Assembly: GCF_010672455.1 (NCBI RefSeq)
Contig: NZ_JAAHGO010000074.1
Span: 1 to 43,179 of the forward strand
Length of the DNA: 43,179 nt
From: Okeania sp. SIO2C9
GTDB lineage: Bacteria > Cyanobacteriota > Cyanobacteriia > Cyanobacteriales > Microcoleaceae
Reading direction: 5' to 3'
Shown: one piece after another, positions 17,962 through 25,357 of the stretch
Layout: each line of letters starts with the position of its first letter
Numbering within the stretch: position 1 is the first letter of the stretch
Program-made: the position numbers and the translations under genes
Notes under the pieces: model-generated
Database searches by the model: none
What the model saw: only the letters and a program-made list of their open reading frames with translations
Told to the model about the DNA's origin: nothing

Positions 17962-17968
17962 CCATGTA

Positions 17969-17989
17969 GGGGCGAATGGCATTCGCCCT
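17969..17989. repeat. GGGCGAATGGCATTCGCCC palindrome
   Basis: A perfect dispersed palindrome 8 bp after the DUF3179 stop. The same sequence occurs inside the NACHT-like gene at about 18723-18743. 17990-18148 holds no gene. Confidence 0.85.
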
Positions 17990-18422: not shown

Positions 18423-19607
18423 CTAAATCCTAAGCCGCAAAAAGTCACAGAAACTCCAATGATACAGACCATAACAGATTTCTCCCCCAATTTCTTGCTG
18501 ATGTAAAAATTCTACCCAACTTTCCAGCACTTCCTCCACATCATATTCATCAACATCTATAAATTGAGCGATCGCCTCCACAGAAACTGCTTCTTCTTCC
18601 TCAACCAACACTTTCAACACTCCTAACTCAATTTCTGACAAACCCTCACCCCCCATTTTTTCCCACAAACCCTGATAATATTCCTCTAAATCTGCCGTAA
18701 GGACGTTCCATGGAACCTTCCAAGGGCGAATGCCATTCGCCCCTACAGTCGTCTCCCTCCCTTCCAAAAAGAGGTTAGAATTCCGGTCCCCCTCTTCCCA
18801 AGGGGGGTTAGGGGGGATCTCACCCAAAAACCAACTCAAATACATAAAATTATTCCCACTCTCAACCACCAACTCTCGACAAAACTCTGCCTCACTCAAA
18901 TAATTTTCAGCAACCCAAGATTTAATATTTGCTCCCACTCCCGGAATTGCCAAATAATGCTCAATATATGCTCGTGCATCTTCCCGGTTTTGTTCTGGAT
19001 ATTCTTCTAAATTCAGTGTTTCGGCAGGAGTTTCAATTAATAAACCAGACTTTGCTCTCAAAAATGGTCTGCGAGCGAGGAGGAAATAGACTTGTTTCGG
19101 CAAATATCTGGGCAAGTAGAATATATTGGAGTCTCGTGGTTGACTTTGGGGGTCGAGGTAGTCGCATCCATCCACAACTACGATTAATTTTTCCTCTGCT
19201 GTCAGGTTGTCGCTAATTTTCTGGAGTAATAGGGATAGATACCAACTGCCTTCCGTAACATTGTCGGGAAGGGAGGGGTTTTGGTTGTCTATTTTTTGGA
19301 TGAGTTGGGTGCATAAGGTTATGAGAAATTCGTCAGCGCGGTTTTTGCCCTCAACTTCCGCAGTGTAATAAACTGTTTGGGGGTTTTGGATGGTGTAGTT
19401 GGCAAGGATGGCACTTTTACCGCTACCGGGGGAACCGATGAGAGTGAAGTAACCGTGGTTGTGGTTTTGGAGGAAGTTGTTGATGGTGGTGGAGATGAGG
19501 GAGCGATCGACATAATTTTCGGTTTTTTGTCGAATGTATTGTTGAAATATTGTTGGGTAGGGGGTGCTTTGAGTTAGAAGTTGAGGTTGGTTGTTTATAA
19601 TAGTCAT
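18423..19607 (-). CDS. NACHT-like P-loop ATPase, short form (second of the locus)
   Basis: 394 residues from the chosen ATG at 19607 (MTIINNQPQLL). Walker A GSPGSGKS (58-65), Walker B LIVVVDGCDYLD (141-152), sensor-like LLARRPF (176-182), GNNFMYLSWFL, LEEYYQGLWEKMG, and the family's terminal helix YGLYHWSFCDFLR. It is clearly homologous to the ATPase at 22545-24143 but lacks that protein's N-terminal 150 residues. The frame stays open to 19685, but those 26 codons lie in a dispersed repeat and overlap the WD40 gene, so the later ATG is preferred. Residues about 264-302 (PPNPPWEEGD...VGANGIRPWKVPW) have no counterpart in the paralogue and are encoded by repeat DNA. It is the last gene of a three-gene series; a STAND-type signalling role is inferred. 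Confidence 0.75.
   Translation of the reverse strand: MTIINNQPQLLTQSTPYPTIFQQYIRQKTENYVDRSLISTTINNFLQNHNHGYFTLIGSPGSGKSAILANYTIQNPQTVYYTAEVEGKNRADEFLITLCTQLIQKIDNQNPSLPDNVTEGSWYLSLLLQKISDNLTAEEKLIVVVDGCDYLDPQSQPRDSNIFYLPRYLPKQVYFLLARRPFLRAKSGLLIETPAETLNLEEYPEQNREDARAYIEHYLAIPGVGANIKSWVAENYLSEAEFCRELVVESGNNFMYLSWFLGEIPPNPPWEEGDRNSNLFLEGRETTVGANGIRPWKVPWNVLTADLEEYYQGLWEKMGGEGLSEIELGVLKVLVEEEEAVSVEAIAQFIDVDEYDVEEVLESWVEFLHQQEIGGEICYGLYHWSFCDFLRLRI
18696..18822. repeat. Composite repeat inserted in frame within the NACHT-like gene
   Basis: Contains GTTCCATGGAAC, GGGCGAATGCCATTCGCCC and AAGGGGGGTTAGGGGGGAT, each a common cyanobacterial dispersed repeat. The GGGCGAATG palindrome is also at 17969-17989. 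The frame stays open through all of it. Confidence 0.75.
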
Positions 19608-19660
19608 TGCGAGCGGAACGGAGTGTAGAGAAGCAATCTCAGGAGTTTGGGATGACCTAC
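19605..19660. repeat. Half-palindromic repeat between the WD40 and NACHT genes
   Basis: Reads CATTGCGAGCGGAACGGAG...GAAGCAATCTC, sharing both motifs with the longer palindrome at 22440-22514. The ATG of the downstream gene is the CAT at its edge. Confidence 0.8.
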
Positions 19661-19665
19661 TTAAG

Positions 19666-22437
19666 TTATGCCTCCATTCCTTCAAGGCGGAGAAAATGTA
19701 TATTTCCTGCTTCTTCCCCTGCCACGATTGTCACATCATCCGGTGCAACTGCACAGCAATTTATTTCACTTTCTCCAGTAAATTTAGCAATTACTGTTCC
19801 AGTTTTAAATTCCCAAACCTGGATAGTTTTATCTGAGGATGCAGAAATAACAAGCTTACCGTCGGATGTAACTTTTACTGAATTTATTGAGTCAGTGTGA
19901 CCTGTAAATGTAAAAATTTCTTTTCTGTTTTCAAGGTTCCAAATTTTGATAGTTTTATCGCGGGAGCCAGAAATTAAGTGTTTTCCATCTGGTGTTACTG
20001 ATATAGTATTTATAGAATCTCCATGACCTTTGAGAGTGAAAAGTTCCTTTCTAGTTTCTAGATTCCAGATTTTAATAGTTTTACCTTTGGAGCCAGAAAT
20101 TAAGTATTTACCGTCTGGAGTGATAGCTAGAGCAGTTACTTGTTGCCAATGACCTTTGAAAACAAAAAGTAACTTTTTATTTTGCAAATTCCAAATGTTA
20201 ATAGTACCTTTAGTTGAACCAGAAATTAAATATTTTTTATTTGGAGTGATTAATATTGTTGTTATAGATTCATAAAAAAATAGAACAATTAGAAGTAGTA
20301 TTATGTACATGGAACATATCCCAAATAAAGAAATCTTTTGAGACACAAATAAAAATGACACACTAACAATAAATATTAAAATACATAAAACGTATAAAAC
20401 AACATGAATAAATTGTAGAGGAGTTCGTAAATCAGAAATACGGTTTTTCTCTTTTAAACTCCATACTGTAAGAAAATAAGGACTCCACATCATATTTATA
20501 TTACTTATAAAAATTAACTCGTGATTATCTGTTGTAGCAGCTAGACCAATAATTTGCTTTTCACCTAATTCGCTTAAGCCTAGTAGTAAATATGAATATG
20601 TATCTGAATATTTAGTAGATTTGGCGATATTTTTAGATTTAATTTTGGTATTACCTCCTTCTAAAAAAAGTTTTTGAAAGATAAATACACAGGGACTTAC
20701 CATAAAAAGAGCAAAAAGTCTTGGAACACTCAAACCAAAAAAATCTGCAACTAATACAATCAATTCTGGAAGTAATTTAAATAATAAAATAAATGATGCA
20801 AAAAATAATAAAATTCCCAGAATAAAAAACAATAAAATAAAAATTACCCATGCCCAAAAAAGCTCTATTGTAGATATAAATTTGTGTATCATATGCCTAT
20901 TTTTATCAATATTAAATTTATTAATCTGCTCAATGGATGCTAAATTATAAGCCATAATAATATTATTTTTTAAACCAAACAATACTTGTTTTCCATCAGG
21001 GGTGATAGTTACATCATTGACAGATATATTATTAGTAGCATGAATATTCTTTTCTACTGAGTCTAAATTCCAGACTTTAAGTGTTTTGTCTTTTGAAGCA
21101 GAAATTAATTTTTTAGAATCCGGGGTCGTTATCACCGCATATATTGAGTCATTATGACCAGTGAAAGTTAAAATTTCCTTGCTAGATTTTGTTTCCCACA
21201 CTTTAAGAGTTTTGTCCCATGAAGCGGAAATAAATCTTGTTCCATCAGGTGTCAAAGCAAGATCGACTATTGAATTAGTATAATTGTTAGGCTCATAGAA
21301 CGATTCTTTTGTATAGATATGCTGATTTGTTTTTGCATTCCAAAGAATCAAGTTGTTATGAGTGTCAACAGCAATCCCTAGACTACCATCAAAAGTAGCT
21401 GCTATCTTACATACATCTGGTTTAGGATGCTTTGAATAACGGATAGAGTTATAGCAATCAAGTTGCGAAAGGAACTTACCATTTTTTAAACTCCAAAACT
21501 TGATAATTCCACTATCCCCTCCAGAAATTACCTCATATCTGGTGATAGCAATAGTTCTTACTAAGTTTTTATGACCTTTTAAAGTTAACTCTTCTTTCCC
21601 AGTTTCCAAATCCCAGACCTTGATGGAATTAATATTAGCAACTGATGCTGAAACTACTTTCTTACCATCTACAGTAATCGCTACAGCAACTATGGGTAAA
21701 CTATGACCATTAAATGTCAATATTTCTGTACCTGTTTCTAAATTCCAGACTCTAATAGTATTATCATAAGCACCAGAAACTACTTTTTTACCATCTGGAG
21801 TAACAGCTACTGCATTTACCGGAGCAGTATGACCTGTAAATGTCTTAACTTCTGTCGCTGTATTCAAATCCCATTTTTTAACGGTATGATCCGATGAACC
21901 GGAAACTACAAATTTTCCGTCTGGTGTGACAGCAACTGCATTTACCGAGTCAAGATGACCACTGAGGGTAGATATTAAGTTTCCATCAGGAGGATTTAAA
22001 CTAGGAGTCAAACTCAGCAAACGAGTATCTTTAGCTTCTGAAATTTGCTGCAACAAATTTTTAATTTCTGGCGCATCAAAATATAGTAAGCGTGCTAATA
22101 GTTGTCCAGCTAATTCATTTGCATCTTTCACCAAAATATGCGCTGACAGTCGCAACGCTCCTTGAATTAATTTCAAAGTTTTAACTTTCTCGTTGTCACC
22201 CTCAATCAGATCGTAATCTTCAATTAACGCCTGCACACCAAAGTTAGGATGCTTAGTTTTTTCTAATAGAAAGTCAAAATTACTCATGTATTTGTAATAC
22301 TTTTCTAAGTCTGACTCTATTAGACTCTGTATATTACCCAGATAAAAAACTTGATCCTCGGGAGTTTGTAATTTAAAAAATTCAGAAAATTTGCCCACGA
22401 TGCTACCTAAAGCCTTATATAGAATCCTTTTGAACAA
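19666..22437 (-). CDS. WD40 beta-propeller protein with membrane helices inside the repeat array
   Basis: 923 residues. Residues 25-150 are a helical region (YLGNIQSLIESDLEKYY, IQGALRLSAHIL, LAGQLLARLL) of the kind that links NACHT ATPases to WD40 repeats in other cyanobacteria. WD40 repeats run from about 155 to 500 (SGHLDSVNAVAVTPDGK, VSGSSDHTVKKWD). A hydrophobic cluster at about 521-592, a stretch with one WD-like motif at about 612-662 (FLTVWSLKE), and a second hydrophobic cluster at about 673-728 follow, then clean WD40 repeats from 727 to 917. The in-frame start is TTG at 22437; the ATG in the adjoining repeat is in another frame, so the exact start is unsure. It lies between two NACHT-like genes on the same strand. 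It is probably the sensor and membrane part of a split STAND system. Confidence 0.8.
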   Translation of the reverse strand: MFKRILYKALGSIVGKFSEFFKLQTPEDQVFYLGNIQSLIESDLEKYYKYMSNFDFLLEKTKHPNFGVQALIEDYDLIEGDNEKVKTLKLIQGALRLSAHILVKDANELAGQLLARLLYFDAPEIKNLLQQISEAKDTRLLSLTPSLNPPDGNLISTLSGHLDSVNAVAVTPDGKFVVSGSSDHTVKKWDLNTATEVKTFTGHTAPVNAVAVTPDGKKVVSGAYDNTIRVWNLETGTEILTFNGHSLPIVAVAITVDGKKVVSASVANINSIKVWDLETGKEELTLKGHKNLVRTIAITRYEVISGGDSGIIKFWSLKNGKFLSQLDCYNSIRYSKHPKPDVCKIAATFDGSLGIAVDTHNNLILWNAKTNQHIYTKESFYEPNNYTNSIVDLALTPDGTRFISASWDKTLKVWETKSSKEILTFTGHNDSIYAVITTPDSKKLISASKDKTLKVWNLDSVEKNIHATNNISVNDVTITPDGKQVLFGLKNNIIMAYNLASIEQINKFNIDKNRHMIHKFISTIELFWAWVIFILLFFILGILLFFASFILLFKLLPELIVLVADFFGLSVPRLFALFMVSPCVFIFQKLFLEGGNTKIKSKNIAKSTKYSDTYSYLLLGLSELGEKQIIGLAATTDNHELIFISNINMMWSPYFLTVWSLKEKNRISDLRTPLQFIHVVLYVLCILIFIVSVSFLFVSQKISLFGICSMYIILLLIVLFFYESITTILITPNKKYLISGSTKGTINIWNLQNKKLLFVFKGHWQQVTALAITPDGKYLISGSKGKTIKIWNLETRKELFTLKGHGDSINTISVTPDGKHLISGSRDKTIKIWNLENRKEIFTFTGHTDSINSVKVTSDGKLVISASSDKTIQVWEFKTGTVIAKFTGESEINCCAVAPDDVTIVAGEEAGNIHFLRLEGMEA

Positions 22438-22439
22438 TT

Positions 22440-22514
22440 GTCATTGCGACGATAGGAAGCAATCTCAAGGGTGTCGCGAGATTGCTTCCTTCCACTCCGT
22501 TCCAGTCGCAATGA
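22440..22514. repeat. Long palindromic repeat between the NACHT and WD40 genes
   Basis: Outer arms GTCATTGCGAC / GTCGCAATGAC and inner arms AGGAAGCAATCTC / GAGATTGCTTCCT: about 75 bp able to form a long hairpin. It lies directly before the WD40 start codon and 30 bp after the NACHT stop. Confidence 0.95.
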
Positions 22515-22544
22515 CTTGGGTATAGTAATTATCCGGATTTGATA

Positions 22545-24143
22545 TTAAATATCTGGATATGAACTAGCTATCCGTGCATTCACTTCCTCAAACAACTTGC
22601 GAGTTCCTTTCAATTCTCTTTTACTTTTCAGAAAATCAAGAAAACTAGCATGATAGATGCTGTAGCAGGTGTTTCCATTACTTTCCTGCTTACTCAAAAA
22701 TTCAACCCATTCTTTGAGAAAAGTTTCCACATCATATTCATCCTGTTCAGCAATATTGGCGATCCTCTCCAGAGAAACAACAGTGCGACTTTCCACCAAA
22801 ATAAACAAAACAATAACCTTATTTTCCAGAGGTTTATCCTCCATTCCCATCCGCACCCAATGTTGTTGATAATAATCTTGCAAACCATCAGGCAACTCCC
22901 TCAAACTCAAATCTGAATAAAAACCCTTAGCAATATCCGGTAACACATAACGCAGATACATGAAATTATTTTCACTCTTGTCTGCAACCTGCTCAATAAA
23001 ATCTTCCTTTTTAATATCCCGCTCTTGCACCCAATTTTGCAACTTAACCCCATAGTCTGGGTCTTCATTCAACATAAAACCGATATATTCTTTCACATCA
23101 TCCCGACTCAAACCCTGATATTCACTCGCCCTCAAATCTAATTCTGTCATTCCCACCCCAGGAGAAACACTCAAACGTTTGTTCTCACGTTCATAAGGTC
23201 GCCTAGTCAAGAAAAAATAAACCCCATCCGGGAGCGTCGTGGGAAAATTGAGAATATTACCGCCTCCAGTTTGCTCCACCTCATCCAAAGCATCAACAAC
23301 AATCACCAACTTTTCCCCCCCAAGATTTTCACTAACCTTTTGCAGCAAAGCAGACAAACCATCGCGATCGCCATTTTGCAACTCGTAGCGTTTCCTCAAT
23401 TGTTTGCGGATACTCTTGAGAAAAAAGTCTGGTTTATTACGACCATCAGCACGAACATTAAAATGACAAGGAAGCTTATGGTCATAAACATATTTAGCAG
23501 CAATAGCAGTTTTCCCCATCCCCGCATCCCCAACCACAGTAAAATAGCCATTAGAATTTTGATTGATAAAATTCCCAAATTCCTCAAACACAAATTCCCG
23601 ACCACAAAAAGCCTTAATTTTTTCCATAATTAAAGACTTAAACTCTGCCGGATATTCATCAAAATTCCAATCTGGATATTCGTCTAAATTCAATTCTGGA
23701 TAAAGCTTAAATTTTGAAGATTTAGTCCGCTTCGCCACACGAATAAAAGCTTGACCAAACTCTTCTAATTCCGACCGAATATCAATCCTTGATTCTTTTA
23801 TTTCATTCCCCAAAGTATTCCAGTCCTTAAGTTCCCAGTTCAGAAATTTATCAACTTCATTCAAGAAACTAATAGGAGAATTAGCAGAATAGGCACTCCA
23901 AAAAGCATTTTTTATTTCCTTTTCCCGCAAAAGTTTAAGAATTGGCTCATCCTTACCCACGCCATATTCTATCAAAGCATAAACATAAACCCCATCAACA
24001 TTATCGGGAGGTTGTGTAGGGTCAAGTTTTAAATCCTTGAAAATTTTGACAACAATTTCTTGTCGTAGAGCTAAATTTACTGCTTGAGGAACAGCAGATT
24101 TACTAACATTAATAATCGTTTTAAAAACATTATTATCTAACAT
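22545..24143 (-). CDS. NACHT-like STAND P-loop ATPase, full form (first of the locus)
   Basis: 532 residues. An N-terminal domain (about 25-100) carries LKLDPTQPPDNVDGVYVYAL and EYGVGKDEPILKLLRE, a block common at the head of cyanobacterial NACHT proteins and probably an effector or adaptor module. After a linker come Walker A GDAGMGKT (205-212), Walker B LVIVVDALDEVE (279-290), FFLTRRPYE, ENNFMYLRYVLPDI, LQDYYQQHWVRMG and the end YSIYHASFLDFLKSKREL. GAGG precedes the ATG. It is the first gene of the trio; the WD40 protein follows after 107 bp containing a palindrome. NACHT proteins oligomerise on ligand sensing; here the sensor repeats are on a separate polypeptide. Confidence 0.82.
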   Translation of the reverse strand: MLDNNVFKTIINVSKSAVPQAVNLALRQEIVVKIFKDLKLDPTQPPDNVDGVYVYALIEYGVGKDEPILKLLREKEIKNAFWSAYSANSPISFLNEVDKFLNWELKDWNTLGNEIKESRIDIRSELEEFGQAFIRVAKRTKSSKFKLYPELNLDEYPDWNFDEYPAEFKSLIMEKIKAFCGREFVFEEFGNFINQNSNGYFTVVGDAGMGKTAIAAKYVYDHKLPCHFNVRADGRNKPDFFLKSIRKQLRKRYELQNGDRDGLSALLQKVSENLGGEKLVIVVDALDEVEQTGGGNILNFPTTLPDGVYFFLTRRPYERENKRLSVSPGVGMTELDLRASEYQGLSRDDVKEYIGFMLNEDPDYGVKLQNWVQERDIKKEDFIEQVADKSENNFMYLRYVLPDIAKGFYSDLSLRELPDGLQDYYQQHWVRMGMEDKPLENKVIVLFILVESRTVVSLERIANIAEQDEYDVETFLKEWVEFLSKQESNGNTCYSIYHASFLDFLKSKRELKGTRKLFEEVNARIASSYPDI

Positions 24144-24547
<404 letters not shown>

Positions 24548-24709
24548 CATTCTGCTCAATTCTAAATTCTAAATTCTAAATTCTAAATTCTAAATTCTTA
24601 TTTGATCATTCTGCTCAATTCTAAATTCTAAATTCTAAATTCTAAATTCTAAATTCTTATTTGATCATTCTGCTCAATTCTAAATTCTAAATTCTAAATT
24701 CTAAATTAT
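24548..24709. repeat. Higher-order tandem array: heptamers within a 59-bp period
   Basis: CTAAATT heptamers are grouped into three units of 59 bp, each beginning TCTGCTCAATTC (24551, 24610, 24669). The array ends at the hisB stop codon. Confidence 0.95.
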
Positions 24710-24712
24710 TAA

Positions 24713-25357
24713 CTACAAAACCCCCTTAGAACTAGGAATTTCCCCAACTCGCCTGGGGTCAATTTCCGTTGCCATCCGTAGAGAACGAGCAAAAGCTTTA
24801 AACCCTGCCTCAATAATATGATGAGAATTAATTCCCGCCAACTGGCGAATATGCAAAGTCATCAAACTATTATTAGCCACAGCCACAAAAAATTCCCGCA
24901 CCAACTGAGTATCATAAGTACCAACCCGTTGAGTAGGCATTTCCAAACCATAACTCAAATGTGGACGACCAGAAAAATCCAAGGCCACCTGAACCAATGC
25001 CTCATCCAAAGGAGCCAGAAAATGACCAAAACGGACAATACCCTTGCGATCGCCTAAAGCCTGTTTTAAAGCCTGGCCCAAAGTAATCCCCACATCCTCA
25101 TTAGTATGATGGTCATCAATTTCAATATCCCCCACCGCATGGACATCCAAATCAATCAATCCATGAGAAGAAATTTGATGCAACATATGGTCCAAAAAAG
25201 GAATCCCAGTATTAGCCTTACAATTGCCCACACCATCAAGATTAAGACTAACAGTCACATCAGTTTCTCCAGTAGTCCGTTTTACCGAAGCCACTCTAGC
25301 AGGTAAATCGAGTTTTTCTGTAATAGTAGATTGAGAAGAGCGATCGCTTATCTGCAT
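24713..25357 (-). CDS. hisB: Imidazoleglycerol-phosphate dehydratase
   Basis: 214 residues, monofunctional type. Catalyses the dehydration of imidazole glycerol phosphate in histidine synthesis, using two manganese ions. Seen: [39 protein letters not shown] (metal-binding His/Asp), [20 protein letters not shown] and the second metal cluster [17 protein letters not shown], ending EIPSSKGVL. It stands apart from other his genes, as is usual in cyanobacteria. About 366 bp of repeats separate it from fabI on the same strand. Confidence 0.97.

Follow-up and report, generated by a model that had tools for sequence, protein, structure and literature searches.

A conserved NACHT, sensor, NACHT gene trio of filamentous cyanobacteria as a possible APAF-1-like switch made in three pieces

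In apoptosome and inflammasome proteins one chain normally holds sensing, arm and ATPase, which makes these hard to study apart. What, then, is to be made of a locus in the cyanobacterium Okeania sp. SIO2C9 where these parts appear to be encoded by separate, adjoining genes? The stretch analysed, referred to here as the window, is the 43,179 nucleotides of contig NZ_JAAHGO010000074.1 (assembly GCF_010672455.1), and within its positions 18423-24143 three consecutive open reading frames (ORFs) follow one another on the minus strand in the order NACHT1, sensor, NACHT2, at exactly the positions proposed in a preliminary description made from the DNA letters. The answer favoured here, with a probability of about 0.5, is that the trio forms a STAND switch of three subunits, equivalent to an APAF-1-like apoptosome whose chain has been divided where the winged helix meets the arm. 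As judged from sequence comparison, filamentous cyanobacteria carry a conserved set comprising an intact ATPase, an exchangeable sensor and a second ATPase lacking a conserved active-site residue. The genes and their parts are as follows.

22545..24143, minus strand: NACHT1, STAND ATPase of 532 residues with a helical domain at the N terminus and both Walker motifs (A and B) intact (ORF, Pfam, relatives)
23718..24131, minus strand: NNH5 (PF22736), predicted output or adaptor domain of NACHT1 (Pfam, model)
23280..23294, minus strand: Walker B of NACHT1, DALDE, glutamate present (motif reading; glutamate in 59/59)
19666..22437, minus strand: sensor, APAF-1-arm-like linker and two WD40 propellers, ORF of 923 residues from TTG (ORF, Pfam, relatives, model)
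21988..22437, minus strand: linker of the sensor, helical, a homologue of the helical domain of APAF-1 (helical domain 2, HD2, or arm; profile comparison)
21058..21987, minus strand: first WD40 propeller, seven-bladed
20707..20838, minus strand: predicted transmembrane hairpin 1, between blades of the second propeller (hydropathy; model helices 515-567 and 571-579)
20278..20403, minus strand: predicted transmembrane hairpin 2, one blade beyond hairpin 1 (hydropathy; model helices 673-698 and 704-720)
18423..19685, minus strand: NACHT2, short STAND ATPase of 420 residues without N-terminal domain, ORF from TTG (ORF, Pfam, tree)
19158..19172, minus strand: Walker B of NACHT2, DGCDY, tyrosine at the glutamate position (motif reading; glutamate in 0/79)

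By comparison with relatives the native start of the sensor is likely the GTG at about 22398, and that of NACHT2 the ATG at 19607, rather than the TTG of either ORF.

Is the arrangement peculiar to this genome? Bacterial and archaeal genomes were scanned with a NACHT2 profile and the best 80 of 181 relatives kept. Where at least 6 kb of upstream sequence was present, NACHT2 is preceded in 56 of 59 loci, on the same strand and in the same order, by NACHT1 and a sensor with a linker, and because of this shared order and strand the trio reads as a conserved operon. Adjacency of the three families, set beforehand as the test of the preliminary description, is thus conserved, and the separateness of ATPase and sensor that it had pointed out proves to be a conserved arrangement and not local decay. 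The number of linker-bearing frames before NACHT2 is one at 56 of the 80 loci, two at 7, three at 1 and zero at 16, a count blurred by contig ends, by fusions to NACHT2 and by broken sensors. With distances taken up to the earliest possible start codon, both junctions commonly show short overlaps or gaps of a few bases, and gaps of hundreds of bases and more also occur. The 72 loci with a genus label represent 24 genera, all of which we take to be filamentous. In a phylum-wide sample of 386 genomes the NACHT2 profile (E <= 1e-60, which catches NACHT1 too) matches 38 and the linker profile (E <= 1e-6) 38, all in the window's own order.

The two ATPases are paralogues, since they are 36% identical over NACHT1 residues 163-404 and 48% over 418-507, and the paralogy is old: all 31 sampled NACHT2 rows form one side of a branch with Shimodaira-Hasegawa-like approximate likelihood ratio test (SH-aLRT) support of 100, by a quick tree method without bootstrap. 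As proposed at the outset, just one of the two has an N-terminal domain, NNH5 in NACHT1, with none found in NACHT2 by Pfam. The more telling difference is at the Walker-B glutamate. In the 80-locus set plus the window, with rows of 250 residues or fewer left out, it is present in 59/59 NACHT1 (DALDE) and 0/79 NACHT2, and the patterns used in the NACHT2 scan did not contain Walker B. In its place are R (24), A (21), C (13), F (8), N (5), S (3), Y (2), T (2) and W (1), a variety that suggests that it is absence of the glutamate, not any particular residue, that is tolerated or kept. NACHT2 retains the first Walker-B aspartate in 79/79 and the second in 55/79. The Walker-A lysine (GxxGxGK[ST]) is present in 59/59 NACHT1 and 79/79 NACHT2, one of the latter reading GKN, and the YH of YHxSF, which we take to be the winged-helix histidine motif, in 58/59 (one gap) and 78/79. 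Loci L129-L144, which may overlap the 80-locus set, have the glutamate in 15/15 NACHT1 and 0/16 NACHT2; a first locus set, which does overlap the 80-locus set, has it in 37/37 and 1/25, the exception being L073. Compared with four relatives, the window has a ratio of nonsynonymous to synonymous substitution rates (dN/dS) of 0.19-0.33 in NACHT2 and 0.42-0.71 in NACHT1. By its sequence NACHT2 is a conserved paralogue that has kept its nucleotide-binding residues and is without both the Walker-B glutamate and the N-terminal domain, and as it forms one side of one branch the glutamate was probably lost in a single old event. As a separate observation, the NACHT1 next to the glutamate-bearing NACHT2 of L073 is reduced to two fragments.

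What might such a loss do? Read from the shared motif, the position would correspond to that of the extended Walker-B glutamate of NOD2, where, according to PMC4158908, which also covers the role of the winged-helix histidine in NOD2, the Blau-syndrome variants E383K/G are autoactive. The likeness is in the residue changed; those are disease mutations of a fused receptor, whereas the loss in NACHT2 is a fixed natural state.

The sensor starts with some 150 residues that are helical in the structure model, followed by WD40 blades (Pfam). Since 19 of 28 relatives' linkers match PF17908 (APAF1_C) at E <= 1, the best at 4.9e-10, and since the linker profile (A2) aligns with the APAF1_C regions of fused NB-ARC-WD40 proteins at an hhalign probability of 99.9%, the linker is to be regarded, on profile evidence, as the APAF-1 helical arm; the window's own linker has no Pfam match. 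This bears out the earlier proposal that the sensor begins with the linker that elsewhere joins NACHT and WD40, and the sensor therefore corresponds to the C-terminal half of a protein like APAF-1, produced as a subunit in its own right. In a structure search its model aligns to both propellers of Apaf-1 and to the end of the arm before them. A search for fused homologues of both halves had been suggested as a check: the linker has fused NB-ARC-APAF1_C-WD40 homologues, and among 150 matches listed from 148 genomes no NACHT1 relative has a frame longer than 782 residues. That the sensor is a stray degraded half of a fused gene was considered and rejected, the linker frames among the 150 listed also being no longer than 1100 residues. 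Sensor parts and NACHT2 lie in a single open frame at four loci: L222 and L182, and also L195 and L220, both of which are at contig ends.

Membrane anchoring had also been proposed, and here the outcome is divided. Four hydrophobic segments (Kyte-Doolittle; residues 534-552, 559-577, 679-697 and 702-720) predict four membrane helices for the window's sensor, but by a stricter hydropathy cut-off none of the linker-bearing sensor frames from 64 loci of the 80-locus set passed, so anchoring as a general feature is not supported. L043, L068 and L075 have membrane segments related to those of the window, and L065 and L063 likewise have hydrophobic helices; in L209, which is the L043 locus, three hydrophobic segments lie in a frame separate from its linker. 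A membrane segment is a property of some sensors only.

Can one ATPase pair acquire a different sensor? In L149, also Okeania, the genes flanking the trio on both sides are common with the window, their proteins being 88-100% identical, and in L151 and L153 the flank on the side of gene 24713-25357 is common, at 92-100% identity; because of these shared genes the three are the same locus as in the window. L152 and L154 have no flanking match to it. Between the window and these five, identity is 76-88% for NACHT1 and 86-94% for NACHT2, 53-60% for the linker and 43-50% for the propellers, and among the five themselves 75-89% for linkers and 66-75% for propellers. The window's propellers are nearest those of membrane-type sensors, at 71% (first propeller) and 77% (last blades) for L068 and 71% and 81% for L043, as against 45-49% and 50-55% by the same measure for the five. 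Its linker is nearer the five (53-61%) than L068 (49%), and by another measure the most similar linker among the matches listed is that of L043, at 68%; the NACHT1 of L068 is just 50% identical to the window's. By these figures the window has, between conserved ATPases at an otherwise orthologous locus, a different sensor of membrane type, perhaps a mosaic. Over 55 loci, without correction for species relatedness, linker distances correlate with those of NACHT1 (r 0.70) and NACHT2 (r 0.67), and distances of the last 75 sensor residues do not (r -0.05 and 0.10). In L152 the stretch immediately upstream of the sensor (2179-2264) holds 44-bp pieces of the NACHT2 start and the NACHT1 end, likely a recombination scar.

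How could the pieces work together? The sensor arm would dock on the winged helix of NACHT1, NACHT2 or both and keep the assembly closed. On binding of a trigger by the propellers, which at the window locus would happen at a membrane, NACHT1 would swap ADP for ATP and co-assemble with NACHT2, which, binding ATP and hardly hydrolysing it, may act as a stable ATP-loaded scaffold or seed, with the rate of reset set by NACHT1 hydrolysis. Clustered N-terminal domains of NACHT1 would then give the output, possibly on DNA in the case of helix-turn-helix versions. What can be read from the genes is a separate arm and two-propeller sensor, an intact NACHT1, a glutamate-less NACHT2, conserved order and varied sensors; docking, the direction of the NACHT2 effect, trigger and output we infer. 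That the trio serves immunity or cell death in filaments would be plausible, defence being a function that we likewise infer. A more ambitious version, advanced tentatively, is that of a natural bacterial hetero-apoptosome, in which a hydrolysis-dead, permanently ATP-loaded NACHT seed, in the state that NOD2 reaches by autoactive mutation, would be silenced in trans by an APAF-1-type sensor and switched on and reset by a hydrolysing partner with the output domain, the sensors being exchangeable cassettes that retarget the same two-ATPase engine. The trio shows a natural division between winged helix and arm that is conserved, with intact and glutamate-less ATPases adjoining; it makes directly testable the role of ATP hydrolysis in a STAND switch, signal transmission by the arm and the swapping of sensors on one engine, and adds a route for recombination of APAF-1-type parts in multicellular bacteria.

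Several points weigh against the three-subunit switch. Three of the 59 loci (L194, L224, L227) have neither NACHT1 nor sensor upstream of NACHT2, and seven loci that do have NACHT1 and sensor (L009, L063, L065, L068, L072, L075, L078) gave no detected NACHT2, which is therefore not indispensable to every relative. L073 has the only NACHT2 found with a Walker-B glutamate, and the inactivity of NOD1 E288K, also reported in PMC4158908, means that loss of the glutamate need not bring a primed state. The relationship to APAF-1 has its own weak places: the linker profile did not reach Apaf-1 in a search against the PDB, the structural match to Apaf-1 is mostly of propellers and begins only at model residue 112, unrelated double-propeller proteins rank close behind (rank 5, E 2.1e-37), and the sensor model has a predicted template modelling score (pTM) of 0.48 with the relative placement of its propellers unsure. 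The species relatedness retained in the distance correlations counts on the same side.

Might NACHT2 instead inhibit, or act as a decoy, binding ATP without being able to signal and holding the switch off by capping assemblies of NACHT1? Its want of an N-terminal domain, the uniform absence of the glutamate, the loci with NACHT1 and sensor in which NACHT2 was undetected and the inactive NOD1 variant would all fit; the frames that join sensor and NACHT2, and the linker/NACHT2 correlation, suggest that NACHT2 shares the sensor and does not only oppose NACHT1, neither being decisive, and we hold this role to be possible, on balance doubtful.

The N-terminal domain of NACHT1 bears on another alternative. 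NNH5 occupies NACHT1 residues 5-142 (E 4.9e-46, 159.4 bits), the sole match within its genome at E <= 0.001; its model is all helical (predicted local distance difference test, pLDDT, 83.7) and a fold search with it gave no clear match. In 51 N-terminal regions, the window's and those of 50 of 57 collected NACHT1, NNH5 is present in 37 and HTH_26 (Cro/C1) in 6, with matches to HTH_3 (5), HTH_31 (4) and HTH_19 (1) that are perhaps from the same members as HTH_26. To judge from these matches NACHT1 carries a variable N-terminal domain, NNH5 here and helix-turn-helix in some relatives. Could the trio then be a MalT-like transcription regulator, with NACHT1 binding DNA and the sensor a signal-dependent anti-activator? 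The helix-turn-helix members speak for it, but with NNH5 in the window and in most others, no link of NNH5 to DNA binding having turned up, and the window's sensor predicted to be membrane-seated, it is unlikely. The ATPase part of NACHT1 matches AAA_22 and NPHP3_N above the Pfam cut-off, and appears to be a divergent NACHT/STAND ATPase: against the Pfam NACHT cut-off of 26.7 bits the window's NACHT1 scores 21.9 and NACHT2 17.7, and the NACHT1 relatives of L048 and L054 score 26.2 and 33.0. Eight more of the matches listed are 77-88% identical to the window's NACHT1.

Less probable again, and very unlikely, is that the WD40 protein is a general scaffold whose gene travels with the ATPases by chance. 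Among 150 linker matches listed from 148 related genomes, 42 have no listed NACHT match within 6 kb on the same strand, and some sensors may stand alone; yet 105 have one upstream (24 downstream, 21 both), fused STAND proteins have a homologue of the linker as an arm within the chain, and linker and ATPase distances correlate.

One further feature fills the spacer between NACHT1 and sensor.

22435..22540, minus strand: dispersed palindromic repeat of about 100 bp, like a miniature inverted-repeat transposable element, MITE (genome search)

Counting its own, it has at least 55 matches in the genome (40 of 124 candidates were scored), and an inverted relative at 19602-19640, at the sensor-NACHT2 junction, puts the family at both junctions in opposite orientation. 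In five close relatives the NACHT1-sensor junction is direct in two (L153, L154) and holds other, repeat-like sequence in L149, L151 and L152. Because NACHT1 and sensor are adjacent without the repeat in L153 and L154, it is probably a late insertion, one that probably altered the region upstream of the sensor gene and did not create the split. Within NACHT2 itself, at about 18694-18793, is in-frame sequence that includes a dispersed-repeat arm (18723-18747) with an inverted copy at 17965-17989, and close relatives have similar inserts at the same place. To the notion that such repeats, in spacer and NACHT2, broke a fused NACHT-linker-WD40 gene beside an unrelated second NACHT copy we give next to no credence, as it is contradicted by relatives that lack the repeat and still have the genes apart, every gene having a stop of its own and a start close by, by the occurrence of the trio in many genera and by dN/dS below 1 for both ATPases.

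How does the trio stand beside known systems? Like APAF-1 it has an arm, helical domain 2, and then two WD40 propellers, the APAF1_C-type domain being seen in relatives' linkers and the propellers in the model. It differs in that the ATPase is NACHT-like and a separate gene (NB-ARC 16.6 bits, cut-off 23.5), in the second, glutamate-less ATPase, and in the predicted transmembrane hairpins within the window sensor's second propeller; no CARD was matched in NACHT1 by Pfam at E <= 1, and NNH5 sits in that place. The fused NB-ARC-APAF1_C-WD40 proteins of the same order (L145-L148) have the homologous linker before their WD40 repeats, in a single chain with an NB-ARC ATPase and no NACHT2 detected beside them. 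That architecture is known in cyanobacteria from PMC8891106, which also has an Ulva APAF1_C/WD40 protein without its own ATPase; the authors looked to an NB-ARC partner encoded apart from it but detected none, whereas in the trio the ATPase genes adjoin the sensor gene. With bNACHT and other bacterial NLR-related antiphage proteins (PMC12169576) the trio shares a bacterial NACHT ATPase, unlike them having a separate sensor gene and a second ATPase. The iSTAND ternary systems (PMC7159879) are also multi-gene, enriched in multicellular bacteria and in possession of an inactive STAND ATPase; their partners are MoxR and vWA, whereas the glutamate-less ATPase here stands with a NACHT paralogue that is intact and a sensor of APAF-1 type. 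Membership of Avs (AVAST) is not indicated, with 32.2 bits to curated Avs1b against 1500 and a partial PADLOC Avs1b match at E 1.9e-13. The parts are of known kinds, and among the titles and abstract openings listed by literature searches none describes a three-gene split with a glutamate-less partner.

Some minor observations remain. Upstream of NACHT1, at 24556-24718 of the window, a short TTCTAAA-type unit forms a tandem array. Between NACHT1 and NACHT2 of L131, L137 and L171 lie tandem sensor genes with linkers, two or three in number and some of them incomplete, which suggests a small sensor array serving one ATPase pair. L094, L096 and L103 have a linker-WD40 gene of about 755 residues with no listed NACHT nearby, antisense to a small ORF whose product we presume to be of phycobiliprotein-lyase type; these are possible free-standing sensors. 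The window's own genome has at L009 (C285, 543-6630) a second NACHT and linker-WD40 pair, 2.1 kb apart with no listed ORF of at least 90 residues between, and similar spaced pairs occur in the same-genus genomes G003 and G004.

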